DNA of 25,768 nucleotides from Lobosporangium transversale (taxonomy: Eukaryota; Mortierellomycota; Mortierellomycetes; Mortierellales; Mortierellaceae). This document shows, in pieces, positions 4,926 to 25,768 of the stretch. Location of the stretch: assembly GCF_002105155.1 (NCBI RefSeq), contig NW_019029088.1, positions 1-25,768 on the forward strand, read 5' to 3'. The translations under genes and the position numbers were made by a program. How positions within the stretch are numbered: position 1 is the first letter of the stretch; the number at the start of each line of letters is the position of its first letter. Below the pieces are notes generated by a model. That model ran no database searches. It saw nothing but the letters and a program-made list of their open reading frames with translations, and was not told the origin of the DNA.

Positions 4926-5421
4926 AATCTATGGAGCATCGCCCTAGCTCATAGGATATGAGTCCAACGTTTTCAAGAAGTTTGGGGCTCCTCTTCCAGT
5001 TTATGTTTGCGTAGTCTTCATCAGTCAGGTCTTCACCGGCTGCCTTTAAAACACGCCGTGTTAAGGAACCCTTGTGAAAGTTTCAATCCCTGGCTGAGAT
5101 CTTCTTCATCTACGTCAGACTGCTGCTATCTCTTCGTCTGGATTGTGCCATAGGCAAGTGGATTCAGAACAAGGCCATTGGTAGAATCGTCCCTTTGAGT
5201 TTGAACCGAGTTATACCTTTGTCTTGTGCCTGTAGGGGTACCTTGTCTCGATAGCCATGAAACATGCGATCTCCTTCAATGTCACAAAGAGAGCCTGTAT
5301 CTAGACCTCTTTTGTTCCCTGTACACATTCAAACACTGCAGCCTTAGGAGGATTGTCGAGAGGATGTCAGTTAGGACGTGTTCAGACAGATACACATACC
5401 GAGGGGGACGTAAGGAAGTCT

Positions 5422-5453
<32 letters not shown>

Positions 5454-5487
5454 CACTCCATTGTTCTCTGGCAAGAAAAGCCCATCG
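4925..5487 (-). pseudogene. Antisense fragment of a Fanzor-like gene (second copy)
   Basis: The reverse complement aligns over almost its whole length with 15800-16390, the start of exon 3 of the Fanzor half of the fusion gene. Long shared blocks include GCAAACATAAACTGGAAGAG, GTGTACAGGGAACAAAAG and ACTCGGTTCAAACTCAAAGG, all in the same order. Differences include a roughly 50-base deletion (matching about 15906-15955), single-base indels, and expansion of a short A run (about 15823-15829) into about 30 bases, seen here as poly-T at 5423-5452. No frame stays open, so this is a dead copy. It shows the Fanzor gene is repeated within this locus. Similarity stops near 4925, where the decayed NTPase relic begins, so the fragment or its surroundings were rearranged. 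Confidence 0.85.
5423..5452. repeat. Poly-T homopolymer of about 30 bases
   Basis: An uninterrupted T run inside the antisense Fanzor relic. The equivalent position in the larger copy has only a short run, so it grew here, or the copy passed through an A-rich intermediate. Confidence 0.9.
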
Positions 5488-6065
5488 AACAATAAAAAAA
5501 ATAGAGAGCTTTAATAGAGAGCAATCGACTGCAGAATATGCAGGAGGATACTCTACACAAAGTTATATCTTTGTGCTCCTGTGGTGAATACATGGGTAGA
5601 TTTGACTCGGTCTGTAGGAACTGATTTGAAACAGGTGGCTACATCCTTGTCAAAGGTAACAACAAAAGAAAAAAAGTCTTCTTTCTTCTTTTTATCAGAG
5701 AATGGCCTCATATGATGCTCTTTGCTCCAACAGCTCCAGCACTTTTGCGTTAAAGCAGAGATATTCGTTGGCTCTCGGGGTCCGGCATCATTGGTGGAGA
5801 TAGGAGTGATGTAGTTGCATGCGCTTATTGCTTGTAGTAAGAACTATCTTAGTACCCTTCCTTACTAGACGACGCCTTGTTAATGGTGATATTGTGCAGC
5901 GCCTTGTGGAAGGAGGGAGAGCAGAAGCGAGATTAATACCGACGCGTTTGATCCTCTCCTAGAAGTATTTTTGATTATGGAGTGATCGCCAAATAAAGTT
6001 TGTTCATTTCTTCTGGAGGCACCAATGGAAAAGGCTTGTGTTTTAGCAAAATGTGTTTGTGCATG
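5488..6065. other. Gap between Fanzor relic and Tc1 element; unidentified open stretch on minus strand
   Basis: On the minus strand about 98 codons from roughly 5855 to 5560 are free of stops (contains KCWSCWSKEHHMRPFSD and STHVFTTGAQRYNFV). It has no convincing start and no family I recognise. It may be an exon of a broken gene or chance. The rest holds nothing I can assign. Confidence 0.25.
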
Positions 6066-6067
6066 TA

Positions 6068-6096
6068 CAGTCACCTGAAATAAAGTTTGGACAAAA
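6068..6096 (+). repeat. Left terminal inverted repeat of the Tc1 element
   Basis: Begins CAGTCACCTGAAATAAAG directly after the target TA and continues to GGACAAAA. It matches the inverted right end at 27 of 29 positions. Confidence 0.93.
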
Positions 6097-6268
6097 TGGA
6101 TTTTCTTGATTTTTTTTTGAACAACCTGGACAAACAGCTCATATGCAACATACATAAAGACTTCATCAATACACATGAAATTTTACATGCTCACTAAAGA
6201 GGTCAATACTGTTATTTATTGGGGTTTTGAAGACGGCATTGTTAGAGTAGCAAAAGTGCCATGTAGGT

Positions 6269-7282
6269 TCAATAGTGAGTGTTCCTACCATCGACCCCAT
6301 TCACTTCTTCCAGCCTTTCGGGCATGGTAGCGACAAGGCTGGCCAGCCTCTCTTGCGGTAAATTATTCCACTCTTCGATAAGAGCCCGTGTGAGAGTGGG
6401 AAGATCTCTTGGCCCTTTAGCGCGCCTATCGAGTGCATCCGCAAGAAGTGACCATACATGTTCAATAGGGTTCAAATCTGGGGAGCATGAAGGCCAGTCT
6501 GGAATCCTCGGGATGCTGTTTTTTTCGCGCCATTCTTTTGCAATCTTACAAGTATGAACTGGAGCATTATCCTCCATAAGTATGCCATCCTCTACCTCAG
6601 CCATAAATCTGGCTAGCTCGCCTTGATATACATCTTCCACGAAACACCGTCCATCTTTACGACCTCTTTCAAATACAACCAACCGAGACTTTCTGGTTGC
6701 TGTGAACGCCCCCCAGACCATCAGAGTTGTTCTACCACTTTTGAAAGTGGGTGCGAGGCAATCATGATCGTACTTTTCCTCTACTTTACGCCAAACTCTT
6801 ATTTGACGAAAATGCTCACCAACTTCAAATGATGATTCGTCAGTCCAAACTACCCGATTCCAGTCTTCCATGGACCAACTCATATATTTTTTGACAAACT
6901 GCAGCCTCCTTTTTATATGTCCTTCTTTTAAGAATGGTTTTTTTACTGCAATCCGGCTGAAAATACCCAGTGAATGCAATGCCTTCGCAACTGTCCTCTC
7001 GCAAACTTTGTTCGGCAATTGGTTAGTGATATCATTAAGAGTACACCTTCTATTCTGCTTAGTATGGCGAACGATGCTCCTGAGGTCCCGTTCACTTAGT
7101 ACTTTGGGCCGTCCTGGGATCGGAGTGCAAGCAGTGGTGCCTCTTTCTTGGTACACCCTGATAATATTAATAACAGAGGTTCGGGGTACACCGCGTTGCA
7201 ATGCGATTTCCGCAGCCTTCATGCCCGCGAGGTGCATTCCAACGATGATACCTTTATTCTCAATGTCTAAGTGTCTCGCCAT
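6269..7282 (-). CDS. Tc1-like DD35E transposase
   Basis: A 337-residue protein of normal Tc1 length. The N-terminal part (residues about 1-125) has the paired helix-turn-helix arrangement with the GRP hook (GRPKVLSERD, residues 57-66) that contacts the inverted repeats. The catalytic triad is D148 (WTDESSF), D238 (MEDNAPVHT) and E274 (SPDLNPIEHVW); by my count 35 residues lie between the second Asp and the Glu, against 34 in classical Tc1. The GxF strand WGAFTATRKS sits between. The protein cuts and pastes the element by DDE chemistry in the nucleus. The start is well placed (MARHLDIENKG), the frame has no lesion, and it lies between matched ends. A nuclear signal may be the basic stretch GHIKRR near 121. 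Confidence 0.95.
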   Translation of the reverse strand: MARHLDIENKGIIVGMHLAGMKAAEIALQRGVPRTSVINIIRVYQERGTTACTPIPGRPKVLSERDLRSIVRHTKQNRRCTLNDITNQLPNKVCERTVAKALHSLGIFSRIAVKKPFLKEGHIKRRLQFVKKYMSWSMEDWNRVVWTDESSFEVGEHFRQIRVWRKVEEKYDHDCLAPTFKSGRTTLMVWGAFTATRKSRLVVFERGRKDGRCFVEDVYQGELARFMAEVEDGILMEDNAPVHTCKIAKEWREKNSIPRIPDWPSCSPDLNPIEHVWSLLADALDRRAKGPRDLPTLTRALIEEWNNLPQERLASLVATMPERLEEVNGVDGRNTHY

Positions 7283-7374
7283 GGTGGTTTACTCAAGCTG
7301 TTTGTATGTGAAAAACAGGAAGGAAAGAGATTGAAGGAAACGCTTCCCAACGTAACTATTTCAATATTTTATTT

Positions 7375-7403
7375 TTTTGTCCAATCTTTGTTTCAGGTGA
7401 CTG
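7375..7403 (-). repeat. Right terminal inverted repeat of the Tc1 element
   Basis: Reverse complement begins CAGTCACCTGAAACAAAG, mirroring the left end, and is followed outward by the target TA at 7404-7405. Confidence 0.93.
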
Positions 7404-8397
7404 TACATGAACCTCGGCAGAGAAATAACTATTGCAAATATAATATGCGGTCGGGCTCTCCAAGGTATGAGTGCTGAAGGCCTTTGGCTATTTGCAATCA
7501 TCCTAAGGATCAGGTAACTCCATAAATATATACAAAATATACCTGCAATATGACATCTTTTAAAAAGGATTTGTCTAAACAATTTTATTGGAATTAAAGT
7601 AAATCACCGAACAAGCTCTTTTTAACTTCGTCCCAACAAACATGTCTTATCTGGGGATACTCCTGGACTTTATCAGTGTGATTGGGCAGTCTATGTAGTT
7701 CCTCGCCGTTGTCACCATAGTCATTTTTCCCGCGAATATACAAAATCTTAAAGTCCGGACACAGCACACCATCTCTCGTTACTTTGAAGTCCCTTTATAC
7801 CTGGTTTCTGATTTTTCTTCGTGGCACTGGAAGAAATGGTGTGAGCGGAAGAACCAATTTCCAAAGAAGGGGATCGGGAGATATTCCCTATCCTCTTCTC
7901 TAGCATACGACGGTGCCGATTGAACTGCCCATAGCATAAGGATCCAATTCGAGTATGAGATTCTACCTGAGCTTGAGACTGTCGATTATTTGTTGCACTT
8001 GAGGGAATATTCTGTAAATGCACAAGCCAAAGTTAGTGCCTGAATTTTTTTAAGTATTTATAATAAAATATGTATATATTTGTATTTATTTTTTTATTTT
8101 TTTATTTTTTATATCGCGTTCCACCTCCACTCCCTTCACATTCTGATCCCTGAGCTCAAGGCGGACATGCTGTTCACATTTGCTGCGTACCATAGTTTTG
8201 TAGCAAAAAAATAAAAAAAAGTCTTTGTTTATTTTTATTCCACGTGGCTTTGAACAATGTTCCATATTGGGATATTGTTTTATAAAACCTGAATGGGTTT
8301 GACATTTTATCGCTTCTCTCTCTCGTTTCTTGGCCTACCTCTCTTAATCACTTCTCTCTTCACTTCCTACACTCCGCCCCTCTATAAATAACTTACG
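7404..8397. other. Region between Tc1 element and helicase; possible minus-strand gene remnant
   Basis: On the minus strand 7796-7594 is open and ends in TAA (contains DFKILYIRGKNDYGDNG and HVCWDEVKKSLFGDLL), which reads like a genuine protein C-terminus. A polar 91-codon ORF at 8023-7748 lies upstream in another frame. I cannot link the two with good splice sites and do not recognise the family. From 8030 to 8397 the sequence is AT-rich with T/A tracts and a C+T-rich leader, fitting a promoter for the helicase gene; tctataaataac at 8381-8392 is too close to its ATG to be a normal TATA box. Confidence 0.3.
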
Positions 8398-10032
8398 ATG
8401 AATCCTAGTAACACTCCTTCGCTGGTTGATCATAGGAGTTACCGTCGCTTATCGGCCGAGCTACTTGGCGGCAATGATGAAATAGTCATCGAAAATAAGC
8501 TTTTTGATCGAACCGAAGCCACTGAACAATGCAAGAAGATATTCAAGGTCACCCCAAAAACTTTGCAGCTGGATGTTGTCGAATGCATTGGCAGTGGTCA
8601 AGATTGCATTCTTATTGCTGGATGTGGTTGGGGTAAGACCCTTGTTTACACCCTTCCACTCGTAATTTGGGGAGATCGGATCACTGTCGTCATCTCCCCT
8701 CTAAGGGTATTGATACAGGAGCAGCAGCAGAGCCTTCAAAAGCTGGGAATTAGTAGTGTAGCATTACTCAGTGGAGGAGCTATCACACGAGGAACAATCG
8801 ACGACGTGGCCGATGGGAAATATAGGGCTGTTTTCATGACGCCAGAGATTATCTTCGACAGCCCTATTCTGACGAAACTCTGGCCAAATCCAAAATGGCA
8901 AAAGCGGCTACAGGCAGTTGTCTTGGATGAGGCCCACTGTATTTGCAATTGGGGCAACAATTTCAGGACTTCTTATGGCCGTATTGCAGAGCTACGCTCA
9001 AAGGTCCCCCGTGGTGTAGCTTTCATCACTGTCTCAGCTATCCTTCCACCAGCGGTTCTAGAGAAGCTCAGAAGGTTAGCTCAATTCAAACCAGATGTCA
9101 AAATTGTCAACGTCGGTAACGATCGCCCCAATATCAGATTGGAAGTCCGGCATCTTAGCTCTAAGGATAAACCCAAGCACCTTGATTTTCTCCTTCTTGA
9201 TCTCAAAAAAACTATTGTCTACTTTCAGACCAAGGACGAGACTAGTTATTGGTATAGACATTTGTACCAGTTAGCAGAGGGCAAGTTCAAGATCGCTGAA
9301 TACCACGCCGACTTTCCCGAAGACTACAAGCAAGAAACTATGGAACGCTTCAAGCGTGGCGATATCCTCATTTTGCTGGCTACAGAGGGTGCTGGGATGG
9401 GGTGTGACATTAGTGATGTCCTCCGTGTTGTGCAGTACAAGTGTCCATCCACAATCTCGGCTCTTGTACAGCATCATGGTCGCGCAGCTCGCAACCCGCA
9501 ACTTCAGGGTCAGGGCATTTTATTGGTACCTCCATCGTCCATATATACCAAGTTTCTAGACGAGGACCTTGCCAATTACATTACGACCAAAGGATGTCGG
9601 CGGAAAGTCCTCAATGACATCTTTGACAATAAGCCCCAACCTAATGAGAACTGTTGTGATATCTGCCATCCAGTTCTTGAGCTGCTGCAACTTCCTTGCA
9701 ATGAAATTCGTGTTGATGCCACACCAAAGGTTCGACGTACAGCAAAGCAGAAGGAAGCTGCCAAAGAAGCTATTAAAAAGTGGAGATTGATGGTTTACAA
9801 AAGGGATTTCGAGCCAGTTTGGTCATGGTTAAGGGTTTCTTGCGTGCTGACTGATGCATTGGTCGATAAACTAAGCGAAGAGTTTGGCAATGTTACGTCG
9901 CCCGAATCGGTAACATCAATTACCGGTTGGACTTTTATAAATGACGACATTTTAGTGGAGCTCGCCAACCGCGTTATTAAATTAAATAAGGATATCGATA
10001 GTGCATGCCAGCCTAAAATGCAACCGCTCTAA
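8398..10032 (+). CDS. RecQ-like DEAH-box helicase
   Basis: A single-exon 544-residue protein with superfamily 2 motifs in order: Walker A GCGWGKT (residues 75-81), Ia SPLRVLIQEQ (100-109), II DEAH within VVLDEAHCICNWG (177-180), III SAILPP (213-218), IV IVYFQTKDE (273-281), V LLATEGAGMGCDI (326-338), VI QHHGRAARN (358-366). After motif VI a RecQ-type zinc-binding segment keeps CRRK (C400) and NCCDIC (C419, C420, C423). RecQ proteins unwind DNA 3'-5' in recombination and repair. It differs from the housekeeping type: no long N-terminal region, no HRDC domain visible, Trp inside Walker A, and a divergent motif VI (usual QExGRAGRDG). Solo RecQ-like genes of this sort are expanded in several fungi, often near chromosome ends, and could be carried by mobile DNA. 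The start at 8398 follows a C+T-rich leader. The frame is intact. Confidence 0.9.
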   Translation: MNPSNTPSLVDHRSYRRLSAELLGGNDEIVIENKLFDRTEATEQCKKIFKVTPKTLQLDVVECIGSGQDCILIAGCGWGKTLVYTLPLVIWGDRITVVISPLRVLIQEQQQSLQKLGISSVALLSGGAITRGTIDDVADGKYRAVFMTPEIIFDSPILTKLWPNPKWQKRLQAVVLDEAHCICNWGNNFRTSYGRIAELRSKVPRGVAFITVSAILPPAVLEKLRRLAQFKPDVKIVNVGNDRPNIRLEVRHLSSKDKPKHLDFLLLDLKKTIVYFQTKDETSYWYRHLYQLAEGKFKIAEYHADFPEDYKQETMERFKRGDILILLATEGAGMGCDISDVLRVVQYKCPSTISALVQHHGRAARNPQLQGQGILLVPPSSIYTKFLDEDLANYITTKGCRRKVLNDIFDNKPQPNENCCDICHPVLELLQLPCNEIRVDATPKVRRTAKQKEAAKEAIKKWRLMVYKRDFEPVWSWLRVSCVLTDALVDKLSEEFGNVTSPESVTSITGWTFINDDILVELANRVIKLNKDIDSACQPKMQPL

Positions 10033-12240: not shown

Positions 12241-13735
12241 TATCAACCAATGAATCAATAATACTTTTTTCCTTGTCTTTCATGAAAGTAACTAGATTTT
12301 AATATCCCTTAAACCGTCAACCTGGCAAATTTGCCATTATAAATGGGCTTAAAATCCAGCAATTCATGGGCATTGTCTTGAAATTTTATTTCGATGTCGA
12401 AATAAATGACCGAAAACTAAACTGTCATGGAGCTATCCTGGCTTCTTTATTTGTGCCAATAAAAAAACACTTGAAGGCTTTCGCATGACACTAGCATCCT
12501 CTTAGGGGGCCCATTGTGTTGTTTATTTATTGACTGGTGTAATAGCAGTGATAATATTCGCCATAGTATCGACTTGAAAGGAGGGCAATCTGAGTTGATT
12601 CATTCTACCGCACCATAGAGCTTGCTCGGCAAGACTTGATTGTCACATCATTTGCTTCCTCGTCTTCTTGATATATCTGGGTTGGTAAACACTGCTAATA
12701 GAGTTTGTTGGGCCTGTTGAAACCAGAGGGAACCACAGCAACATATCATACCCAAGGTGATACAAATATCTCTGTTGGAGTGAGTGGTGAACTGTGTGTG
12801 GTTCAGATGTAGTGGACATAAACGGCGAAAGAATGCATCGAAAGGATGTGAGCGATTATGAGAGCAAGGAAGAAGGGGTTGGTATGCCTGTTCAAGTCCT
12901 TGGCAAGAGAGCATGAGTAGCAGTTGTGATCAATGGTATAGTTTCTAGACCCTATCTTCCACGTACAGCATTGCATTATTGGTGTTTTCAGACCTGGCAC
13001 CAATCATGCGAGGTATTTCTTTTTCTGAGGATTCCTTGTGTTAAACGGCCAGACAGAAAGCTTAAAAGACAAACAGACACAACGGTGAAAAAAAAATGTA
13101 TGCGAGCAAACAGTTGCTGTGTTTATTTGTTGTCTGAACATGCCTTCTTTCATCGCGGGCTTTTTTTTTTTTTTAATTGTTTCGCAAATCTTGTTTCCTT
13201 TTTTGTTCGTCAATCACTGTGTGCACGAATAAGCAGCTGAAGCATCTCTTTGGTTTCTGTACATGCATAGCTATATATTTTTTCGAATGCTTACTTTGAT
13301 ATCTCAATGCTATTGTTTCCAATCTGTCGTTCATGCGAGAGCTTGTATTTATTTCTCAATCTCTGCTATTGACTGGGACAAAACCCCAATCCAAACAAAG
13401 GAACTGAATAAAGATTGATGTGGCCTGTGAAGCAAAGGATCGATATCAAAACTATATGAGACAATGATAAAACTCATCATCAATCCAGGATATAAAAAGG
13501 GATCATTGTCTTCCTCCTTCAAAGTCCCATCCCTTTTACCACTGCCACTTGTTCCTGTATCTTTCCCTCAATATTCTTTATCTATTCGCTTTGAATCTTT
13601 ACACCATAAAAAAGCTCATCCTTTTATACCTTTGTCGCTTTTTTTTTATTTTTTTTTTTTTTCTTTTTCTTTTTCATTTCTTTTCATCACCACCATTTTT
13701 CCTTTTTTCTTTCTCTTTTCGCTTAGATATTGACC
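12241..13735. other. Long intergenic region upstream of the nuclease fusion gene
   Basis: No gene I can support. Minus-strand ORFs at 12648-13003 overlap each other and lack a recognisable domain. From about 13490 to 13735 the plus strand becomes strongly pyrimidine-rich with long T runs, the same kind of leader that precedes the Crinkler and helicase genes, and probably includes the promoter and 5' leader of the fusion gene. The Phe-rich ORFs here are translations of that tract. Confidence 0.4.
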
Positions 13736-16700
13736 ATGGGGCTGAAGTCCCTCTTCAAACCGGTTGCAGATCGCGGGGTTTTACCTTCGGAAACTGACGT
13801 GGGCACTTTCTTGGCGGCAAATCCTGACCATTCTGTTCATTTAGATCTCCTCGGTACGTTCTATTACGATATCCTCCGCAGAGTCGTCCATGCAAAGATG
13901 AAAAACGAAACCATCATTGATGTAGGAAGGTCCCTGGCACTCGAGATAAAGGATCTTTTCACAACGGACAACCTGACTATACATATTGATGGGGAACCTT
14001 GTACTGAGAAAGAAAAAGCAAGGACAGAACGGCAAGCCATAAGACAAAAAAATATGGACGCTTTGGAGAACAATATGAGCACCTTCGAGAGAAATTCTCG
14101 GAGTGGGGTATGGACTCGTCCTCAAGTCATGAGGCGCATCCAGGAGGGTCTTCGAGAAGTCCACACCCTGAGCGTCCAGGACAAGGATCAGCTGGCAACA
14201 GGCCTTAGTTCTGTCTTCGATGTCTGTCTGTGTGCATATGAAGCGGACCCATGCATAGGGTGCCATGATGAGGAGAATGATAGGATCGTGATATCCCAAG
14301 ACTCTGATTTTTTTGCGTACGAACGAGTCTGCTTCCTAGTGCGACCCCTTCCGCACCGTAGACGGAAGTTTGGGGTTTACGACGTAGACAACGTTATCCA
14401 AGCACTAAGACTGCCAACACACGCGCATCTGGTGTTATTCTGTGCCATCGCAGGCAATGACTACTCAAGGAACCTCGAGACGTTAGGCCCGGTTAATAAT
14501 CTTCGATTAGTTCGAAAGGTTGCGTGGAACGAGAACTATAATAAAATGCTTCAAGATTACCTCGGGGAAGCTAATAAGGTGTTGGGAAGGAACGTAGCAT
14601 CTGAGGAAGGCCGTTTCAGTGTAGCTCTCCGCATTTTTACTTCCGGCCATCAAACGTCGGCCCAAGCGTTACCATCGAACAATGAGTTCGATAACTTCAA
14701 GCAGCGTCTACTCAATGGAAAGGATCTTCGCCATAGAATGGCTCAGCAAAGGCGAGCGCAGCGCCGCAGAACGTAAGAAAGCTCAAGCTATAGTTTTTGG
14801 CCTTGAAACCAGACGTCCCCAATACTAATCGTTAGTCCCTTTCTTGAATAATGTAGAGGCGTACCATCATTCTATATAGCGGAAGGGTCACATAGGAACC
14901 AGTTCCGGCCCGTCTTTTCTGACAAGGCGAGCATATTGGATGGGCGCACAGTTGATATCAGTAACTGCCGTCAGCACGATAGGCCGGGCCTTAAGCATCC
15001 ACCACGTCGGAGAAGGGCAAAAAAGAAGCAACAGAAAAAACAAAAGCGGAAGCACAAAGGCAAGAAGCCCCACAGGGCTAAAAAAGAAGGTGCACCAATT
15101 AGGAACTTGAAGGATGCTACGAAGGTTGATCACAGCTACAGCAGTAAGCACCCTATCAAGGCCTTAACAATTGGGTCCCTTAAGGCCTCCATGGCAAGGA
15201 AAGGCGGACTGGACGCAGATGAAAGGGATAGTATTGCAAGCCAGATCCGAGGGGCAGTTGTTGTCCTCAACCGACTACGCCGCTATGCATACTGGGCGAT
15301 TGCCTTGGACATTGAGAGGCTCATGCGGTTACCAGGGGCAGCAAAGTCGAGGAAAAAGGCACTGGACGAGGTCACAATGATTATTCCTTCCGTCTCGCCA
15401 CCCTTCTTTTGAGTGGTCAAGGTGGCCCCAATTCAGCTTACGCGAGGGCAAAAAAACAAGGAAAGGCGGTAGAAACGCCCCATTATCTCCTCGCCTATGA
15501 ACATTTCAAGGCCACCACTGAACTTTCCCCAATAAAGGATATAGACATCACATTGGGGGACGTCCAAGGCTTTGATCCCAAAAAGATCACATTTCCAAGA
15601 GCGTCAGACTTACTAATGGGCCAAGTACAGACATCATTAAGGCAGCACTACAGGAACGCAATGGTATAGCTTGTGTAGGGGTATTTTCATGCATATTCTG
15701 CAATCAAATGCTCTTTATTCACACCTTTTTTTTTTTTTTTTTTTTTTTTTTTAGTTTGATGTCGAGAAAACAAACGAAGATATGAGCGACATTGAGTTTT
15801 TTTTGCGGGAGAACAAAAAAGTGAAAAAATACTCAGACTTTCCTACGTCCCCCTGGTCACCCGGGTATGTGTATCTGTCTGAACACGCCCTAGTTGACAT
15901 CCTCTGGGCGAACGAAGATACCAAGCAGCTGCTGGAGCGTATTCTGCCTCTCAATAATGCTTCCAAGACTGCAATGTATGAGTGTGTACAGGGAACAAAA
16001 GGGGTTTTGATACAGGCTCTCTTTTGTGACATTGGAGGTGATCGCATGGTTCGTGGATGTCAAGACAAAGTATCCCTGCAGTCACAGGACAAAGATCTAA
16101 CTCGGTTCAAACTCAAAGGAACGATTTCTACCAACGGTCTAGTTCTGAATCTACTTGCCTATGACACAACCCAGACGAAGAGACAGCAGCAGTCTGACGT
16201 AGATGAAGAAGACCCCAGCCAAGGACTGGAGCTTTCTCAGGGATTTCTCAACACGACGTGTTCAAAGGCGGCCGGTGAAGACCTAACAGATGAAGACTAT
16301 GCAAACATAAACTGGAAGAGGAGCTCCAAGCTGCTTGAAAACGTTGAGCTCACATTCAACAAACCAGGGCGATGCCCATCCGCAAACACCACAACTATCG
16401 TCGGATGTGATCCTGGTATTGTTAACGCCCTTACGTTTTCCTCGCTGGACCCTCACAACCCTAACTTGCGGCAAACGGTAAAGGTGAGAAGCAGGTTCTT
16501 GTACCTCCCTGTCCTCCGCTTCAATCACCTGTTGAACAAAAGGAAGCGTGAAAAAGGAATGATTGAGGTTGAGAGCGCCATCCCTGTGTTTGGAAGGGAT
16601 ACGTATAATGAGTACTTTCAATGGATGAACGAGGAGTCTCAGACACAGACAGGATCAACGAATTTGGATGTGCTTCAAGAGTTCTACGAGTCCAGATGGC

Positions 16701-17231
16701 ACCTGAAAAAAAAATGGGACCTACGAAAGGCTCAACGAGCTACGTTCGACTACGCGGTACAGCGAGTGTTGAAGATGCTTGGGGATAAAGGAGTACTTGT
16801 CGTCGGCCTAGGGTCCTTTGAAAGTAGTAAAGGAGTTCCCAGCAAGCCACTGCTATAACGAGACATCTTGTCACACAGGTATGGCTGTTTTTAAAAAATT
16901 AAGCAAAGCTGGAAAGCCATAAAACCCTTGCTAATAAACGACTGCCATTTGAAACGCTTAGGTCAAAGCACGCGGACACTTCGCTGTAGGAGCGCACGAA
17001 TTTTACACCAGCGCCCGCTGTCCCCGACCCCTCTGCGATAGCTTTTTAGAGACGGTGTACCCTCGCTCTAAATATTGCCGGACATGTAAGGTATTCTTCG
17101 ACTGTGACGCAGTAGGGGCGGAAAACATCGCAAGAATCGGTCTTGCTCAAATTGAGAGGCAAGAGAGGCCTGCAAAGTACAAGCCCACGGAAGAGTCGCC
17201 TGCTCCGGCTGCAAAGCGCGCACGACGCTAG
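13736..17231 (+). CDS. FEN1/XPG-like nuclease fused to Fanzor (TnpB-like) nuclease; two frameshifts
   Basis: Model: exons 13736-14772, 14857-15663, 15755-16878, 16962-17231. The start is ACCATGG, giving MGLKSLF, like the conserved MGIxGL start of FEN1. Residues 1-300 carry the FEN/XPG acidic set: D37, D85 (IHIDGEP), E169 and D171 (YEADPCIG), D189 and D191 (ISQDSDFFAYE), D242 (IAGNDY). Exon 2 gives a Lys/Arg-rich linker (RRRRAKKKQQKKQKRK) and a helical segment. Exons 3-4 carry Fanzor marks: STNGLVLNLLAYDTT, RuvC-I VGCDPGIVN, RuvC-II-position VLVVGLGSF, zinc ribbon CPRPLC...CRTC, and RuvC-III FFDCDAVGAENIARIG. Fanzors are RNA-guided DNA nucleases; FEN proteins cut 5' flaps. Reading is broken by one apparent base loss between about 15350 and 15400 and one near 16847; adding two bases makes 3,240 nt, 1,080 codons. 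So it is either a recent pseudogene or an assembly error. I recall FEN-like N-termini on Mucoromycota proteins of this kind but cannot verify how well described the fusion is. Confidence 0.82.
14773..14856 (+). other. Intron 1 of the fusion gene (joins FEN half to Fanzor half)
   Basis: Donor gtaaga directly after CGCAGAAC, branch-like tactaatc about 28 bases before the end, acceptor aatgtag. Splicing is phase 2 and makes codon AC|A, after which the frame stays open to 15412. Without splicing the FEN half would stop at the TAA 14774-14776 overlapping the donor. A competing acceptor (gttag, 14835) exists. Confidence 0.75.
15664..15754 (+). other. Intron 2 of the fusion gene with very long polypyrimidine tract
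   Basis: Donor gtatagc after GCAATG, acceptor after a T run of about 27 bases ending in ttag. Phase 0, joining frame 1 to frame 2 (NAM to FDVEKTNEDMSD). Confidence 0.75.
16879..16961 (+). other. Intron 3 of the fusion gene
   Basis: Donor gtatggc after GTCACACAG, branch-like gctaataa near 16930, acceptor cgcttag. Phase 0, joining RHLVTQ to VKARGHFAVGAHEFYTS, which brings in the zinc ribbon and RuvC-III. Confidence 0.75.
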
Positions 17232-18233
17232 ACACAAGTATTTGGGTGCCGGCACACCCACAAAAAATTTGTAAGTTCTGTTTATTTTCGTCTCCTGTAT
17301 CCATCCTCTCTAATCTTTTGCCCCTGAATTTCTGGACTAACTTTAAAAACCGTACAGATCAACAGATAAGGTAATTTGGCCTTTTACCATTCTAGGGTCC
17401 TTAAGTATCTTCTAAAACCAGCTGGACCCTCTTGTTTGCTTTCAAGAAGATCTGTCGCAACCTGCTTGCCTGACTCCTGCCAGAGCAATTTATACCTCAA
17501 ATTACTACGTATTTCCTGTCCCAAATAAAGCAAACTTTATTACCGCCGTTGTAAAAAAACATTGATTGAATTGATGATTTGGTTACGACACAAAATGGTG
17601 ACCAACTTCTCCTCGGGCCTAATCTGATCCGCTTCAAATGGACTCTCGTAGCTTTCAAGAGAGCTGGGACAAAATGAAGTTCGCTTTCAAGCTTAAGGGG
17701 ACATTTCCGAGAGTCAAACAAAGCTGTCGCTGCTCTCCTCATAGTTAATATATTGCCTTTGAAAAAACAAGATAAAGAACAGGTAGCCCTCAACTTTAGC
17801 ACAGCCTGGTCTACTTTAAAGCCAATTAAATTGCCTAAAGGTTAGGCTTGAATGGCGGCCGATGTGCTCACTGACAGGCAGAGGCCCTTTTTTTAATTTG
17901 TTTTGTATTGGTTTATTTGGTGGTGATGGAATGATGCTTGTTTATAAAAAAAAATTGAAAATACGTTACCATTACTAATCATAAGCAGAAACAAAAACGG
18001 TGGTCATGGATACAGTACAATGCACTGATTCTCTGAAACGCCATGAGGATGCTCTTTTTTCTCTTCGTCTCTTTAATTGTGTTGCCCTCCGTCATTTTGA
18101 GATATCCAACCAAAGCGCATAACTGTTGTTTGTTTACAATGCAATCACATCCAATGGCAGTCACCTTATTTTCAAATATAATGCTAGACTTGTTAGATAA
18201 ATACAAAACTCGGCCATTGTCTATTTAGTCTAT
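17232..18233. other. 3' flank of the Fanzor fusion and spacer to the next gene
   Basis: Just past the stop lies the palindrome GTGCCGGCAC (17246-17255) inside gggtgccggcacaccc. In Fanzor and TnpB systems the guide RNA is usually made from the 3' end of the nuclease gene and its flank, so 17100-17500 is the natural place to look; nothing here proves one. A region at 17590-17800 has short open pieces in several frames but no gene I can support. From 17880 it is AT-rich. Confidence 0.35.
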
Positions 18234-19994
18234 TTATGATCTAAAAGTTGTCTTATTAATAACATCTATACTTGCACTCGAGCTTTTTGACCCTTGCTTC
18301 TGGCTCTGGTTCTGGTCCAACTGATGTATCAATGCGTTCAACCTCCGAAGCGCTACCTCATGTATAGCTTTTCGCTCTGCTTCATCCATTGGACTATCCT
18401 TCTGACTCTCTTCCTCTATAGCCTCTTTTTGCTTCTCCTGCTCTTCTTTTTCCCTGGCTCGTTCATCTGCTTCCTGCTTCTCCTGGGCAAGCGTCTCCAT
18501 CCATGCCTGAAGCATATCACCTTCAAAAACATCATCATTGTAGCCTTGGTCTGGACGCTCAATTGGTTGACACTCCAGAATGGGTTGGGACTGTGGTAGT
18601 ACTAGTGGTAGTGAAGATGCTGGTAATGAAGTCTGATGCTGATGTGGATTCTGACCACCTTGCGATGGTATAACCTCCGCTGTTGATGTAGTCAGTGACA
18701 AAAGATGTGAAGGGTCTGAGATATCGGGTGAATTGACGAAACCCTTGACATCAAACATAAAGCCGCAGGTTTTGAGTGATCCTCTTCTTTCACCCATATC
18801 CTGATTATGCTTTTGTTTCTGCGGCTGTGGATCAGTAGTGGTAATAGCTGAGGATCTTGAAAGCTCCTCTATCCGCTCATTTTGAGGGACTGCAGCCGTT
18901 GTCGACACTTGCGCTGACTTGTGAGATAAACCGGAATGGATTGGTTGTTGCGGTGGAGTATGGTACTGAAGAGGGTTGTAATATATGGCTCCATATTCCG
19001 GGGAATCTGTTTCAGCTCCGGAAGGCCATAATGCTGCTCCTTTATGAAATGATGAACCTACTCTGTCTGGAGTGGAGTACTGCTTTATGGAGTTGTAAGT
19101 TGTAGGCGCAATCGACTCATCCCAGACTTGATCCCATGCTACTGCTTCTTCCTGCTTATCCTTTAGTGAAGAAAAAGCACCATATCCAAGATCTATCATG
19201 ACTTGTTCCTGCTGTGATGATGCCCTCTTCATCTCAAACCCATGATCCTGAATGTTGCTATTCGCTTGCGATTGCCATTGCGATTGCGACTGTAATAATT
19301 GAAAAGCCTCTCGTGCCCGATGTCCCTGCTTCTGCAGATGACTGTGAGGTCGGTCTTGTGATAATAACAAAGTAGTAGCGTACGGATTGTGATGCCTCTG
19401 TTCTAAATGATCTTCCAATCGACTTTTATTCAGATCACCACGATCTGTGTTCAATTGGAATGACTCTGAGAAATCCACGATGGGTCCTAGTCCATCATGT
19501 CTATCTTGACTTCGAACGAGGGCCTCGCGAGCGTAATATTCTTGACGCTGCATCAAGTATTCGGAAATATCAACTCCATGGGTACCAGAATAGGGAGTAG
19601 AGAAGGGATGTTGTTGTTGAGCGCTGCCACTGTTAAAGATCGTGAACTCATCTTGGGCTTGAGAGATAGAAGGGATACTGTTACCCTTTGAGGCAAAATG
19701 ACTACTGTTTTTGGCAAGCGAAGAAGAAGAAGAAGATGATGATGATGATGATGATGATGGGAAAAGATGACTATTATAGTTCCCGAGAGGTTGATTGGCA
19801 AAAGAAGGATGGGTATATTTTCTGATGGTATTGTCGTCTGATACTGAGGCTGTTGAGTTGTGCGTCTATTTGCTGCCCCATAAACTCTTGTTCGTAAAAG
19901 TGGGTCAATGCCTGGAAAGGATTTGCAGAAGAAGACGAGAAGAGGAAGAGCCACTGGCACCTTTACCACTTGATTCGAAGAGTAGGCTTGTCAT
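18234..19994 (-). CDS. Gln/Ser-rich coiled-coil protein of unknown function
   Basis: Model: exon 1 19994-19967, intron 19966-19850 (gtaaag...caacag), exon 2 19849-18234, total 1,644 nt, 547 residues. Exon 2 is one uninterrupted frame. It is low in complexity: a poly-Ser run encoded by TCA and TCT repeats (plus-strand 19725-19760), Gln/His-rich stretches, and a charged helical C-terminus (QEKQEADERAREKEEQEKQ, then DEAERKAIHEVALRRLNAL) likely to form a coiled coil. No membrane segment or signal peptide. In another frame the predicted intron reads SSSSANPFQALTHFYEQEF, which has the flavour of peroxin (Pex5/Pex20) N-termini; if that were coding, frameshifts would be needed. I therefore prefer the intron model but hold the 5' end loosely. 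Function not recognised. Confidence 0.6.
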
Positions 19995-20402
19995 TTGGAG
20001 AAAAAAAAAGAAGTTTGTGTAATGGTAATGCTGCAAGAAGGAAGGCAACAAGAAGTCTAAAAGACCGACGGAATGACGGAGGGGAACTTGTTATAAAGAA
20101 AGAAAAAGGGAAAAAGGGAAAAAGGGAGTGATGAGTAGAGAAAGGAGGAAAAAGAAGATGAAAGAAGACATTTGCATGAGAACCAGTGTTGAATTGTGGG
20201 GTGTGTGTTTTTGTGGATGAGTAATTTCGATTCAGGTCGGACTCACACCCGTTGAGTAGGGTGTCTATTTGTCAAATTTTAATTTCAGTTACCGGAGCAC
20301 GGCGAAGTGAATTCCGATCAAATCCACACATGTGAGAACAATTTTTGTCTTTATTTATTAATTTTATTAGAGTCTGAATGAAAGGGATAAGGGTCTATGC
20401 TG

Positions 20403-20433
<31 letters not shown>

Positions 20434-20470
20434 TAAAATGTTTATGTTTTTTAACTATTAATACATTTAT
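19995..20470. other. Spacer with promoter-like and homopolymer sequence
   Basis: Upstream (minus-strand) of the Gln/Ser-rich gene. Its minus strand is C+T-rich (ctttttccc repeats near 20100-20130), like the leaders of other genes here. A poly-A run of about 28 bases lies at 20402-20428. No coding feature seen. Confidence 0.45.
20402..20428. repeat. Poly-A homopolymer of about 27-28 bases
   Basis: Uninterrupted A run in the spacer just past the 3' end of the minus-strand 2H-phosphoesterase-like gene. Confidence 0.9.
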
Positions 20471-21295
20471 TTACTTGGAAACAATCTTGTGGATGCAAGC
20501 ATTCTTGCCCTTGAAGACGCCATCCTCTGCATGGATATCACGGTGTCTGTAACCTAGGGTGATTGTGGGGCTTGAAATTCTCAGGGTCAAACAGAGCGGG
20601 GTTTCCTCCTTTCTTCACATACAGCTTGAAACATCCTCACGGAAACGGGTCAAGTCACGGTAGTTCTTGAGAATGATCTGGAGAGACTGTTGGAAGACAC
20701 CATCCGCCTTCGTCACCATCTGGACACGACCCAAGCACTCGGTTCGAACCTGGAGCGCTGAAGACGGTTCTTGTGTGAGGCAAGGGCGTTGATCTCTTCA
20801 ATGGTCACACCAGCAGGGTGAAGGATCTGATCATACTCCGTGGGCAAGATTACAGTGATATGTGACTCTCCACGGGAGATCAAGGTTCCGTTACCAAAGT
20901 CCTTAGTAGTGTTGACAAGATCAAAGACAGGTTTGACATACTTGAAATCTACATTCAATCCAACCCAATTGGCGAACAAGCCAGTGCCCTGTTGAAACCA
21001 TATTCAAATTGAAAGTTGTGCATTGAAGAAAGCAGTATATCAAGTGATGGTGTTAGTGTTGAGTAGAGTGAAACACCGTTATGTATTTTTATTTTCTCCT
21101 CCGAGCATTCAAGGCCTCCAGTATTGAACGTACACTATGAGGGATGAAAGGGACCTTCGAGGTTTGGAAGACTTTCTTGTTGATGACAATGGGCTTGCTG
21201 TGGTACTTCTTATTGCCATCAACAGTCTTGGGACCTGCCATGACAGTCGAGGCAACTAGAGCCAAAGTGGCGAACAAAAAAGTGGCAACACGCAT
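20471..21295 (-). CDS. Secreted 2H-phosphoesterase-like protein, with three single-base indels
   Basis: Exon 1 (21295-21134, 54 codons) encodes a classical signal peptide, MRVATFLFATLALVASTVMA, cleaved before GPKT. Intron 21133-20989 has donor gtacgt, branch actaac and acceptor tttcaacag, phase 0. Exon 2 (20988-20471) begins GTGLFANWVGLNVDF and contains a first HxT motif (ESHITVILPTEYD) and, in a shifted frame, a second (NFKPH then ITLGYRHRDIHAEDG), the paired HxT signature of 2H phosphoesterases, enzymes that act on 2'-5' or cyclic phosphates. The frame is broken by apparent base losses near 20745 and 20622 and a gain near 20562; allowing for them gives 681 nt, 226 residues, ending KIVSK. 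So it is either newly dead or a sequence-error case. A product acting on RNA outside the cell or in the secretory path is inference. Confidence 0.65.
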
Positions 21296-23204
21296 TGGTT
21301 ATGAAAAAATGAGGAGAGGATATGTGTCTGTTGGATGGAAAAAAGGTGAAGGAAGTGAGGTAGATGGATAATCGAGGAAACAGAATCCACTTTTTGGGCG
21401 CGGGAGAATTCCTTTTAAATGTTTTCCTTCGATCGAAAGAGTATTTTTTTTGCTTCTAAAATAAAATGTGCTTTCCTTTCCAGTAAGCACAGAGGACAGA
21501 TTGCCAAAGGGACAAGAGCAACAATCCATTGGCCATTGAGAGCATCAATAGTCTGTGTTGTAGTAGGTTTCTGGGAACGTGGACTATGGATTGGATGGAC
21601 AGGGGCCCAAGAGATAATAAATGAAGGGAACACAAACAGCAACAGAGCCAATAAAATTTAATACACTGGTTAGATGTCATAAACGTCATTTATGGTTCGC
21701 TCAACGATAAAAAACTGAAGAACTATCAAAAATCTGGATTGAATATGTAATTAATGCTCTATCACAGCGCTTTACAGTCGCCCAGTAGTCAACCCATATT
21801 CTCCCTCAAGCGCCACACGATTAGTGCTATAACTCATTATTGTGTCTCATGTTGAAGGCACATTGTTACAGGAAAGGAATTGCTCATACCCTCCTTCCAT
21901 AACTGTCAACCGCTCTGTCCGCGGTGAGTGGGACAAACAAAGGTCTGTAACCAGCGCGCGCTGTACAAGATAAAGGATTCCATTCGTTGACCAGACTAAT
22001 GGTGTTATGCCTCGGTAGTGATCATTGAAGTTCTATATCAGATCAAGAGTATGATTGAGCTTGCCTGCGTACAAAATAGCATATGCGCCGCTAATGGTTA
22101 AGAGTCCTTGAAAACACATGTCTCGATCCAAGTGGATCCATGTCATATGCACTTCTTTCTGGTCTTTGCTGTGTTCCCAGCAACGGTTATCTAGCATTTA
22201 TAACATTGAGCATTGGTGGCGTCATCTCTCTGTAGCGCTCCTTGAGAACTGCAGAAAGAACGCACACCTTCTCTCTGGCAACCAACCACATTTAAAGCTT
22301 CCATCCATGACCCTGTAAAAAAAGCGTTATGAGCATTCGGATTCATCACTCCATATACGAATGAATACTAGTGGCGTTGGATTATGGCTATGGTGGACTT
22401 TCGAATCCAAGCAGTGATACAAACCCCAATAAATCGAGTAGCGCCGGTTAACCGAGCAGTATCCGAGGATTTTCGAGCAGCAACGAGAATAGTCCATTAG
22501 GAGTATGAGGTGATCTGTTGGACCATCTGAATCTCAATCCGTAAATACACTATATATTAATACGAAGCTAAACTTTATGTCCAATACTGCTGCGGCTGGT
22601 CAACTCACGATGCAGATAAATAGCCACATCTCACATCTTTCGGTCAGAATGCCGTGAATTTGACACAAACGCTACAGATCTATCAAAGCACGCTGCTCTG
22701 CCCATGTCAAGCCAGCATCACATTCACCTTTGCCAGACCATTTCTTTTTAAAAAGTGGATTAACTTCTGAAGGATTTGTTTGGCCGATTGAATTGACCTA
22801 AGGCTCGGAAGTCCACCTAGGGGTGTATAGTCTTTTTGAATTAAAACAATCAAAATATGCGTTTTGAGTTCCAATGGTATTCAATAGTACGAGTTTGTTT
22901 AAAGTTTCTGGGCGACTCCCATGTAGCCTCGCGTTTATTAAAGCCCCCCATTGCACATGATATTCTATTTCATTCTTCCCCTGGTGTTATCCCAAACAAG
23001 CTTCTTTAAAGTTCTGGCCCCGCAACTCCAAAAAGTTATGTTTCCATATGTTGGAATTTCTACACGCGCATGGAGATATGGCTTTAAAAAGTGCTTCTAG
23101 CTGATATCCATGTTCCTTCCAGGCCATATCCTTTTGTTATGTCCCAGGGTTTGGAGGTTCCTCAAAAGAAACTTTCATTTTAATCCGTAATATCAGATTA
23201 ATTA
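21296..23204. other. Mostly non-coding, with an unidentified minus-strand relic
   Basis: 21296-21530 is the likely promoter side of the secreted 2H gene. On the minus strand from about 22118 to 21830 one frame reads almost through (contains SGAYAILYAGKLNHTLDLI, one TAG, then VWSTNGILYLVQRALVTD), and further upstream near 22290-22200 another frame is open (SAVLKERYREMTPPMLNVI). This may be a decayed gene, with a faint resemblance to fungal kelch-type proteins, but I cannot name it. Nothing supportable from 22320 to 23204. Confidence 0.25.
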
Positions 23205-23400
23205 GTGACGGCTATGGCAGGGCCTAATAAAAGGTTCCACATAGCAACCATAATAAACAACTCTCGATCTCCTTGGCATACCAGCCTTCAGAAAATATCC
23301 CAGCTTGTGGTCGTATCCTCGTGTTACTATCAACGGCTATATATATATATGTTTCTTTTTTTTTTTGTTCTGAGGATATGGCGAAGATGAAATAGCACAT
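23205..23400. repeat. Degenerate repeat unit A
   Basis: Shares ordered patches with unit B (23755-23970): tcgatctccttggcataccagccttcag against gcgatctccctaccttcag, then an AT-rich patch, a T run, and gaggatatggcgaagatgaaatag against gaggatttggccagaatggaatag, followed in both by ccttttcagcc-like sequence. Diverged duplication; no coding potential. Confidence 0.4.
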
Positions 23401-23754
23401 GATATCTTTTCAGCCCCATCCGAACGAGTCGATACAAAGGAATGAAGGGATGAGACGGAGGTGTATTTCCATAGAAGAATAACACTTGCTGTCCTTGGTG
23501 GTTATTTTGCGCTATTCTGTAAATTTAGCCTGAATACAGCATCTGACACGCCGGCAATACAAAAAATGTCTGGGTCAAAAAATTCGGGTGTTTTTTCAGC
23601 ACACAAAAGTTCCCTCCGTTCCGCACAGCAGTATAATAGGTAAAATAGTGAGATCTGCTCTGGCTGGGCACGTATGGGGCCAGCATTGCGTTATGACTTC
23701 AAACCTGTCCTGGGCCCTCTCTACTAGATACATGTGCTTGCAAGGTATTCTATG

Positions 23755-23970
23755 CTTGTCGTGATCGGGACTCTACCAACAGCGATCTCCCTACCTTCAG
23801 TCGATAGACAAGGCTAGAGGGCATTCTTGGACGAAAGGCAACCACAATTCAGGCGCATCTTATATATTATTATCGGCCTTTTATTTTTTTTTTTTTTTTT
23901 TTGAGGATTTGGCCAGAATGGAATAGTCTTGTAGATGTTTCCTTTTCAGCCAATGAAGAACTGGCTCAGA
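23755..23970. repeat. Degenerate repeat unit B
   Basis: Diverged second copy of unit A, same orientation, about 550 bases away, with a T run of about 20 bases at 23885-23902 inside. The sequence between the two units holds no gene I can support. Confidence 0.4.
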
Positions 23971-25195
23971 TAAGGAGCATGTTCTACCAGTCGAACAAAA
24001 GACAGCAAGCTTTCGGTTGCCCCCGAGAAGACACCACTAATAAAACAATAGAGATATATCTATTTCTGCACATGCTGTCTTGCAGTTCTGGTATCGCGGT
24101 CTCTTTGGTTTTTTTCCGGACACCAATAAAGTAACTGTGTTCTGGTAGAGCGCCATGCCTGAAACAATGGCCACATGCCATGCATAAAAGATAAAGCCCT
24201 TAAATTCAGAGCCCTTTTAATACTTTTCACACATGGTGGCAAATACCATCAATTTGTGCTTGACGATTCGCCACCATCTCCATTTGATTGGCTAGGTTTT
24301 GTCTTTCCCTGTGGCTGATTAAATACTGTCATTCTGAACATGTTGTTCATTGCCAATAGCGCTTTGTGGTTCGGTCATCCACAGCTCATCAACGCAATAG
24401 CTAATAGCTGACGCGAACTTTTATTTGCAACAGCAGCATATTACTCTTTGTCCAATATTCGCCTGTTTTATCTTCAAAGAATTAGTTGCTATACTTTCTT
24501 TTTCAAGTACTATTTTCTCTTTTCAATTCTTTTTCCTCCTCTCTACCAGCAATCGATAGCTGTCGAGCCGACGAGCACTATAGTTCAGCTCAACTATCAT
24601 CAGCTCCGCCCCCCAGCTTTCTGCCATATTGAGCAGACAGATATGAATATGGCTCACATAACCTCTTCGAGCTAGACAGTCGTCTAGCATCCTGTCAAAC
24701 ACTCAGCAATGTTAACCACATACCGTTCAAAGATTTAGAGCGTGGATAGGAAAGGGATATGACTGATGAATGTTTGACACCGGGACGTATAGTTGTGAAA
24801 GTAAAAGTTTAACACCAAGCCAGGCGAGGGAACCCTGGCAACAGCACAATGGCGGATGCAGTATTCCGAGAACCATTGTATACTCCCTCTATATCAACGC
24901 TGTGAAAAGGAACGTATAATAGAAAGGAGTAATAGTGAGGAAAAGAACAAATAGGAATCAAACAAAGGCGAGATTCACCAACCTCTTCAACTAATCCAGC
25001 TCCCCTAAAGTAAACCAAGTTGCTGCACAACTCATAAGGCAGCTTAAAAATAAAAAGAAAGTTCCTATTTTGAGACAAACGCATGTTGCATAGATATTCA
25101 ATTTGGGAAGCTACTCTCTGTTGGATAGTTCCTGCGATGCAATGCTTTGTACATATTTTTATTACTGTGGTGGCTCTTATTACCTTCATTATTAT
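23971..25195. other. Intergenic sequence without supported genes
   Basis: Short ORFs on both strands lack start context, domains and splice partners. 24430-24560 has a C+T-rich leader-like tract on the plus strand, perhaps the orphan promoter of a lost gene. A 126-codon minus ORF at 25189-24809 lies directly past the leucine-rich-repeat gene's stop and looks like chance. Confidence 0.4.
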
Positions 25196-25768
25196 CTAGA
25201 TTATGTTATGTGATTCAAAGAACTCTTCCAGCAAAGCAGCTGCATCTTCCTCGCCGTTCAGAACACCATGCACGCCTCTAAATCTTGGCCAATTGTTCAC
25301 CATCCATGTCGCATCCTCAAGCTGCATTCGCTGCTGATAATCTGTAACCCTTAGCGTATCTAGTCTCTTCAGATTGGCTAGTTCATCCAGACCTGCTCTT
25401 AGTCTTATGTCCAGTGTCCGACTGTAGAGCTGTGTTAGGTCAAGATGTTCTAGCCGAGTCAGCTTGCCAAGCTGCTTAAACGCAATACGTGCCTTTGCCA
25501 TCCCTTCTTCAGTCTCTTGATCAATATCTGCCTCAAGAGTGATACTCAAGTGAGTCAATCCACTACATACCCATTCTGCTCCATTGACAATCTCTGATAC
25601 TGTAGTTTTAGATCCTTCCAGTCTCTTCAGTCGTGGACAATTTGATAAATAGCCTGAGCAACACTGCTATCTCCAGCGAGCACTAACGTCTCAACTGTCT
25701 CACAGAGTCTCCGAAGCCTTGTCTTCTGTACTAGCTGTCCATTATCCATCACTTCTTGCTTGTCAGCT
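25196..25768 (-). CDS. Leucine-rich-repeat protein, C-terminal part (runs off the window)
   Basis: The open frame 25558-25196 extends upstream into SNCPRLKRLEGS near 25620-25650, then a one-base shift near 25650 links it to LRRLCETVETLVLAG at the window edge. Repeats of the LRR type are visible: LGKLTRLEHLDLTQLYS, LANLKRLDTLRVTDY. The end NWPRFRGVHGVLNG followed by an acidic tail is typical of the fungal F-box/LRR proteins that are expanded in Mortierella-like genomes; the F-box, if any, would lie beyond the right edge. Such proteins bring substrates to SCF ubiquitin ligases. The single-base break means either pseudogene or sequence error. Start not in view. Confidence 0.65.

Follow-up and report, generated by a model that had tools for sequence, protein, structure and literature searches.

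A mobile element of Lobosporangium transversale carries a FEN/EXO1-family nuclease fused to a Fanzor

The stretch of DNA analysed here, hereafter the window, is the whole of contig C14 (25768 bp) of the genome (42.7 Mb) of the soil fungus Lobosporangium transversale. Positions 12305-17366 of its forward strand are one copy of a mobile element whose sole recognisable gene encodes a flap endonuclease (FEN)/EXO1-family nuclease fused to a Fanzor. This copy is a broken relic. Judged from sequence comparisons, the fusion is common to two well-separated subfamilies of L. transversale (A and B) and to Benniella. Both fungi are Mortierellaceae, and the occurrence of related fusions in sister fungi makes the arrangement look like a real enzyme design. 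We hold the anatomy described below with high confidence.

The window copy belongs to subfamily A and spans approximately 5.1 kb. It was delimited by comparison with three further loci (L031-L033) and with 21 left and 21 right ends read across the genome, and it lacks about 0.4 kb near position 13270 that is present in fuller copies. The gene, on the forward strand, has four exons. Exon 1 (13736-14772) encodes the FEN/EXO1-family domain and is open in this copy. Exon 2 (14857-15663) encodes the N-terminal part of the Fanzor, including a basic stretch. Exon 3 (15755-16878) contains RuvC-I (Asp codon at 16409-16411, within GCDPG) and the RuvC-II region, and exon 4 (16962-17231) the zinc ribbon and RuvC-III (Asp codon at 17106-17108), ending with the stop codon at 17229-17231. 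A preliminary description of this DNA had proposed a single-intron gene. The 84-bp intron that it placed between the two halves does join exon 1 to exon 2 in phase (intron 1, 14773-14856, phase 2) and the gene does end at 17231, but there are three introns in all, the others being intron 2 (15664-15754, phase 0) and intron 3 (16879-16961). Intron 1 has the donor GTAAGA at 14773 and an acceptor TAG ending at 14856, so that AC|A is joined in phase. The unspliced FEN-like frame (13736-14773) has 346 residues, and the in-frame TAA that terminates it sits inside the intron 1 donor.

Several observations indicate that the two halves form one gene. All three introns recur in subfamily B at the positions found in A, the first of them in the same phase, even though the FEN halves of the two subfamilies are only 31-32% identical. 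A and B resemble each other from the very start of exon 2, directly past the acceptor, and Met is absent from the opening 111 codons of this exon in A and from the opening 149 in B. Together these features imply that exon 2 continues the FEN half, unless translation starts at a non-AUG codon. A database protein of 1160 aa from Benniella sp., labelled as coming from a metagenome-assembled genome, matches at 34% identity over 99% of a 936-residue query. The preliminary description had raised the prospect that the halves might always be independent genes in homologues; the Benniella protein spans both. A public Lobosporangium gene model (P0002) splices exactly where exon 1 meets exon 2. A partial Mortierella sp. 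NVP85 protein (P0016) extends beyond this junction, and P0015, from Benniella, contains FEN and RuvC parts as well as the beginning of the zinc ribbon, with exon 2 skipped. The other database gene models cover only one half each, and when the fused alignment was used as a profile against the protein database, only two proteins came up among 8000 candidates scored.

The two halves are also neighbours across the genome. When 82 zinc-ribbon matches were compared with 109 places matching FEN, a same-strand FEN match was found 764-3015 bp upstream in 52 of the 82, against 2, 1 and 1 in the controls (FEN match downstream, and two counts on the other strand). Seven further loci were chosen by coordinates; five have FEN and Fanzor pieces (three of lineage C, one each of D and E). 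Chance association is ruled out by the conserved intron, the Benniella protein over both halves and the excess of linked zinc ribbons.

The FEN half contains seven acidic residues (D37, D85, E169, D171, D189, D191 and D242), all of them where the preliminary description had located them and all invariant in four of four diverged members. Structure comparison found the FEN/EXO1 fold, with 12-20% identity in the structure alignments. The Pfam profile XPG_I scores 15.9 bits on the window frame (cut-off 24.9) and matches three of eight relatives at E 0.1 or better (best 2e-5); the seven database relatives of the window frame are all L. transversale proteins. The conserved catalytic residues and the EXO1/FEN1 fold are compatible with a role of this half in processing flaps or R-loops, as suggested earlier. 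Elsewhere in the genome, a weak FEN match (C36:244244-244531, forward strand, E 5.4e-6) lies in an open frame of 827 aa, which is perhaps the host's own FEN-family gene.

The other half is, by its motifs, a Fanzor/TnpB protein: it has the RuvC-I Asp of the DPG motif, invariant in four of four diverged members, and a TnpB-type zinc ribbon with the RuvC-III Asp. In the search with hidden Markov models that had been suggested for this gene, PF07282 (cut-off 26.3) reaches 29.0 bits in the B copy L074 and stays just under the threshold, at 23.9, in the window copy. The top match of an exon-4 profile is the TnpB-like protein L79 (E 1.8e-8), and NCBIfam gave no match over a cut-off. Viral relatives were also considered; of 49 pattern matches in viral contigs, none was confirmed.

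Exon 1 has 121 matches in the L. transversale genome, and the copies end sharply at the equivalents of 12305 and 17366, which bears out the earlier proposal that the gene is carried by a transposon. Subfamily A accounts for 15 rows of at least 299 residues at 85-100% identity (window included) and subfamily B for 15 rows at the lower identity given above; the rest are fragments and more distant lineages. Aligned with their flanks, the A copies have TCCCTTAAACCGTCAACC at their left end and ACCGTACAGATCAACAGA at their right end. Pattern scans detected 21 left ends and 43 right ends, with none in the backward controls, and we read the flanks of every left end and of 21 right ends. With duplicates removed, CTA stands at the end of the left flank in 15 of 19 distinct cases (ACTA in 11), and TA follows the right end in 20 of 20. 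The corresponding flanks in the window are ATA (12302-12304), a candidate target-adjacent motif (TAM), and TA (17367-17368). The element starts with 5'-TC, is inserted between A and T, and ends in CAGA. At an empty site on C82, a diverged paralogue of the window flanks, TA|TA stands at the element's position; the alignment scores 222 if no duplication is assumed and 212 if TA is duplicated, for a single site in which the number of TA may have changed since divergence. Among 26 right ends found for subfamily B, 15 were fetched and TA comes next in all 15 (TATA in 13), with AATA past the right end of one further copy, L075. The left boundary of B, in two copies, falls in or after ACTA.

No exact 10-mer is common to the inverted ends of four A copies, and the marks of Tc1/mariner elements, terminal inverted repeats (TIRs) and TA duplication, were not found in this element. 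A perfect 14-bp palindrome near the left end (TGGCAAATTTGCCA, 12323-12336) folds no better than shuffled sequences, as holds for the terminal hairpins (185 and, at the right end, 126 of 200 shuffles as good). Three loci show related structures: a short, MITE-like (miniature inverted-repeat transposable element) sequence with the A left end at both ends, inverted, and TA on both sides (L077, 58-571, on C57); the left 1 kb of an A element with no FEN-Fanzor gene (L079, 57-1097, on C53); and an A element whose position coincides exactly with the right end of a B copy (L049, C37:47447), where the B end GGAC followed by TA recreates a CTA|TA target.

In the window copy the spliced frame runs for 530 residues and then stops, owing to 7 nt that are missing from exon 2 at 15375 relative to the sibling L032; exon 3 has a further 1-nt deletion relative to L032 at 16848, and L032 has its own separate break in exon 3. 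Exon 1 carries 0.80 frameshifts per kb, exon 2 carries 1.43 and exon 3 carries 1.55, for loci ranked by their FEN match. We do not claim that the FEN half is kept while the Fanzor decays, since loci chosen in this way make these densities unusable for or against it. Pooled pN/pS (nonsynonymous to synonymous ratio) values in A copies are 0.61 in exon 1 (25 copies), 0.59 in exon 2 (26) and 0.44 in exon 3 (22), and exon 1 of subfamily B gives 0.41 (three copies); all are point estimates, and decay of copies after insertion raises the ratio. The two halves look to be under similar, modest constraint.

A number of results weigh against the explanation favoured below. The Fanzor half of the window copy is frameshifted, which had escaped the preliminary description; the fusion it proposed is supported by the conserved intron, the start of exon 2, the Benniella protein and P0002. 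None of six copies (the window's, L031, L032, L074, L075 and L076, with L033 left out) is open through all four exons. In the ten A copies with an intact FEN half, pN/pS in exons 1-3 is only 0.60, 0.74 and 0.63, and for exon 2 two individual pairs have values as high as 1.44 and 1.16. The 1160-aa Benniella model runs from FEN through RuvC-I and ends before the zinc ribbon; its whole-protein structure prediction has a pLDDT of 50, and structural matches cover only residues 2-338, the FEN domain. One diverged lineage has KSD in place of the EAD motif and has thereby lost one acid. Thirty of the 82 zinc ribbons have no upstream FEN match, among them two of the seven further loci, which have Fanzor pieces and no FEN frame in sight; many of the remaining ones score identically to B copies and may be truncated. 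The RNA fold of the 3' end is not unusual (z +1.74 and +0.72, and -1.18 in a B copy).

TnpB and Fanzor proteins cut under RNA guidance beside a TAM, which for SpuFz1 is CATA (available part of PMC10432273). By analogy, an RNA derived from the element's 3' end would guide the Fanzor half, which would cut an empty site next to a 5'-CTA TAM. The natural candidate for this motif would be the (A)CTA of the left flank, and the right flank would be the target of the guide. The FEN/EXO1-like half would then process the break by trimming its 5' ends or flaps, and repair would copy from the element-bearing locus, restoring and multiplying the element. Such a division of labour, in which one half cuts and the other trims, is a possibility to which we give somewhat less than even credence. 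The anatomy and the division of labour taken together, which make up the best explanation we can offer, have in our view evenly balanced chances of being right. A bolder version is that FEN-Fanzor works as a one-chain copy-back machine, in which a built-in nuclease that resects 5' ends or trims flaps steers repair to homologous copying and an element with neither TIRs nor its own transposase spreads by RNA-guided homing; we put this forward as speculation that is rather unlikely to hold in full.

A real fusion might also serve another purpose. The FEN half could act in transposition itself, where it would remove 5' flaps or junctions if the element moves by way of a single-stranded or rolling-circle intermediate, a step for which a Helitron might provide Rep/helicase in trans; the Fanzor would only secure retention. 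Helitrons have no TIR, make no duplication, insert between A and T, and have 5'-TC and CTRR ends. The absence of a detected TIR, the one empty site without duplication, the insertion between A and T and the 5'-TC start are in keeping with this idea, as are 34 genome matches to Helitron_like_N (31 over the cut-off) and the lack of any genome match to Y1 (PF01797) or serine recombinase (PF00239) profiles. However, the right end is CAGA and not CTRR, the terminal folds are no better than shuffles, and the ends agree only in part with those of Helitrons in general. No Rep/helicase frame occurs in the open reading frame lists of the A element, and the PF14214 matches lie elsewhere. We find a transposition role of this kind improbable, though still to be reckoned with. 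It is less probable again, and in our opinion quite unlikely, that the locus makes two products, with retention of intron 1 giving a free FEN protein that stops at the donor TAA and may act alone, and splicing giving the fusion. The stop codon does lie within the conserved donor of both subfamilies, and an uninterrupted FEN frame on its own occurs in 15 B rows and in the majority of the long A rows, but the conserved position, phase and flanking coding sequence of the intron favour splicing. Low FEN/EXO1 identity and the acid lost in one lineage might suggest that the FEN half is in practice no longer a nuclease and has become a module that binds DNA structures or replication forks and so places the Fanzor; the invariance of the seven acids in the four diverged members makes this very unlikely. 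That the halves are merely unrelated neighbours or were brought together by an accident of assembly, as the several database models spanning just one half might suggest, is contradicted by the conserved intron, the Benniella protein, the P0002 splice, the 52 linked zinc ribbons and the start of exon 2, and can be practically dismissed.

The remainder of the window holds other elements and genes. A diverged remnant of a related element lies on the reverse strand at 4931-6044 (approximately 84% identity over an exon-3 stretch), and a Tc1/mariner element (6068-7403, reverse strand; transposase frame 6269-7288; ends CAGTCACCTGAAACAAAG, TA-flanked) is inserted within the diverged FEN-Fanzor remnant. 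The preliminary description had reported no transposase gene nearby, which is incorrect, even if this transposase belongs to a separate element. We considered it as the FEN-Fanzor element's own and rejected this, given its own ends and its many genome copies (20 full-length rows at 97% or more, the window's included). The same mariner occurs at the corresponding point of another copy (L011, on C56). To the right of the FEN-Fanzor element, window positions 17367-25768 match C66:93615-102500 at 96.6-99.7% in three stretches, and the upstream side does not, so that the breakpoint falls at the element. One-ended transduction was rejected as the cause because the match continues to the end of contig C14, which indicates a duplication or a second haplotype. 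Two forward-strand frames at 350-2803 appear by eye to be a Crinkler-type header followed by a P-loop NTPase, the Pfam matches of the second being weak. A further forward frame at 8392-10032 encodes a RecQ-like DEAD/DEAH helicase of 546 aa (DEAD 2.4e-21, Helicase_C 2.3e-17, RecQ zinc-binding weak).

Within the full-text literature searched, to which the large survey of Jiang et al. 2023 (Science Advances) did not belong, we found no Fanzor fused to a FEN, XPG or PIN domain, none with a second nuclease in the same chain, and no mention of Fanzor together with Mortierella or Mucoromycota. To that extent the earlier suggestion of a distinct architecture is borne out. The combinations of Fanzor with FEN1 and of TnpB with flap endonuclease fusion were matched in full text by a single gene-therapy review. 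The terms XPG and FEN are absent from the available part of PMC3627910, XPG and flap from that of PMC10711439, 'fused' from that of PMC10432273, and 'flap' from PMC11423790. The fusion bears on the open question of what a Fanzor does for its transposon: its conservation implies that it matters to the element what becomes of the DNA ends once they have been cut. It also suggests that nature offers a template for RNA-guided nucleases able to process the cut ends themselves. An element family with neither TIRs nor its own transposase, and with a countable target site, makes mobility and repair outcome testable.

Compared with known systems, the FEN half shares the fold and seven catalytic acids of the FEN1/EXO1/XPG/GEN1 5'-nucleases, and differs from them in its very low identity, its fusion to an RNA-guided nuclease and its carriage by a mobile element. 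The element resembles Helitrons in having no TIR, no duplication, an A|T target and 5'-TC; it has no Rep/helicase gene, an end that is not CTRR and no significant 3' hairpin. TnpB elements of the IS200/IS605 and IS607 groups carry a TnpB-type gene, insert beside a short left motif and lack TIRs, as does the FEN-Fanzor element, which by contrast has the FEN fusion and no Y1 or serine recombinase, either within it or found in the genome. As far as the available parts of the cited sources go, the likeness to Fanzors (SpuFz1 and others; PMC10432273, PMC3627910) lies in the RuvC-I DPG, the TnpB-type zinc ribbon, the RuvC-III Asp, the home in a fungal mobile element and the short T/A-rich left flank, and the difference in some 340 extra N-terminal residues, encoded by the same gene, that form a FEN/EXO1-family nuclease. 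For the SPu-1 element, TIRs of 33 bp and putative TA duplications are reported (available part of PMC3627910), whereas ours has no detectable TIR and no duplication at one empty site. Also fungal are the Fanzor1 elements MCi-2 and MCi-5 of Mucor, which like the FEN-Fanzor element have no recognisable TIRs and no clear superfamily, but which make target duplications of 11-12 or 6 bp and for which the same part of that source reports no FEN part.
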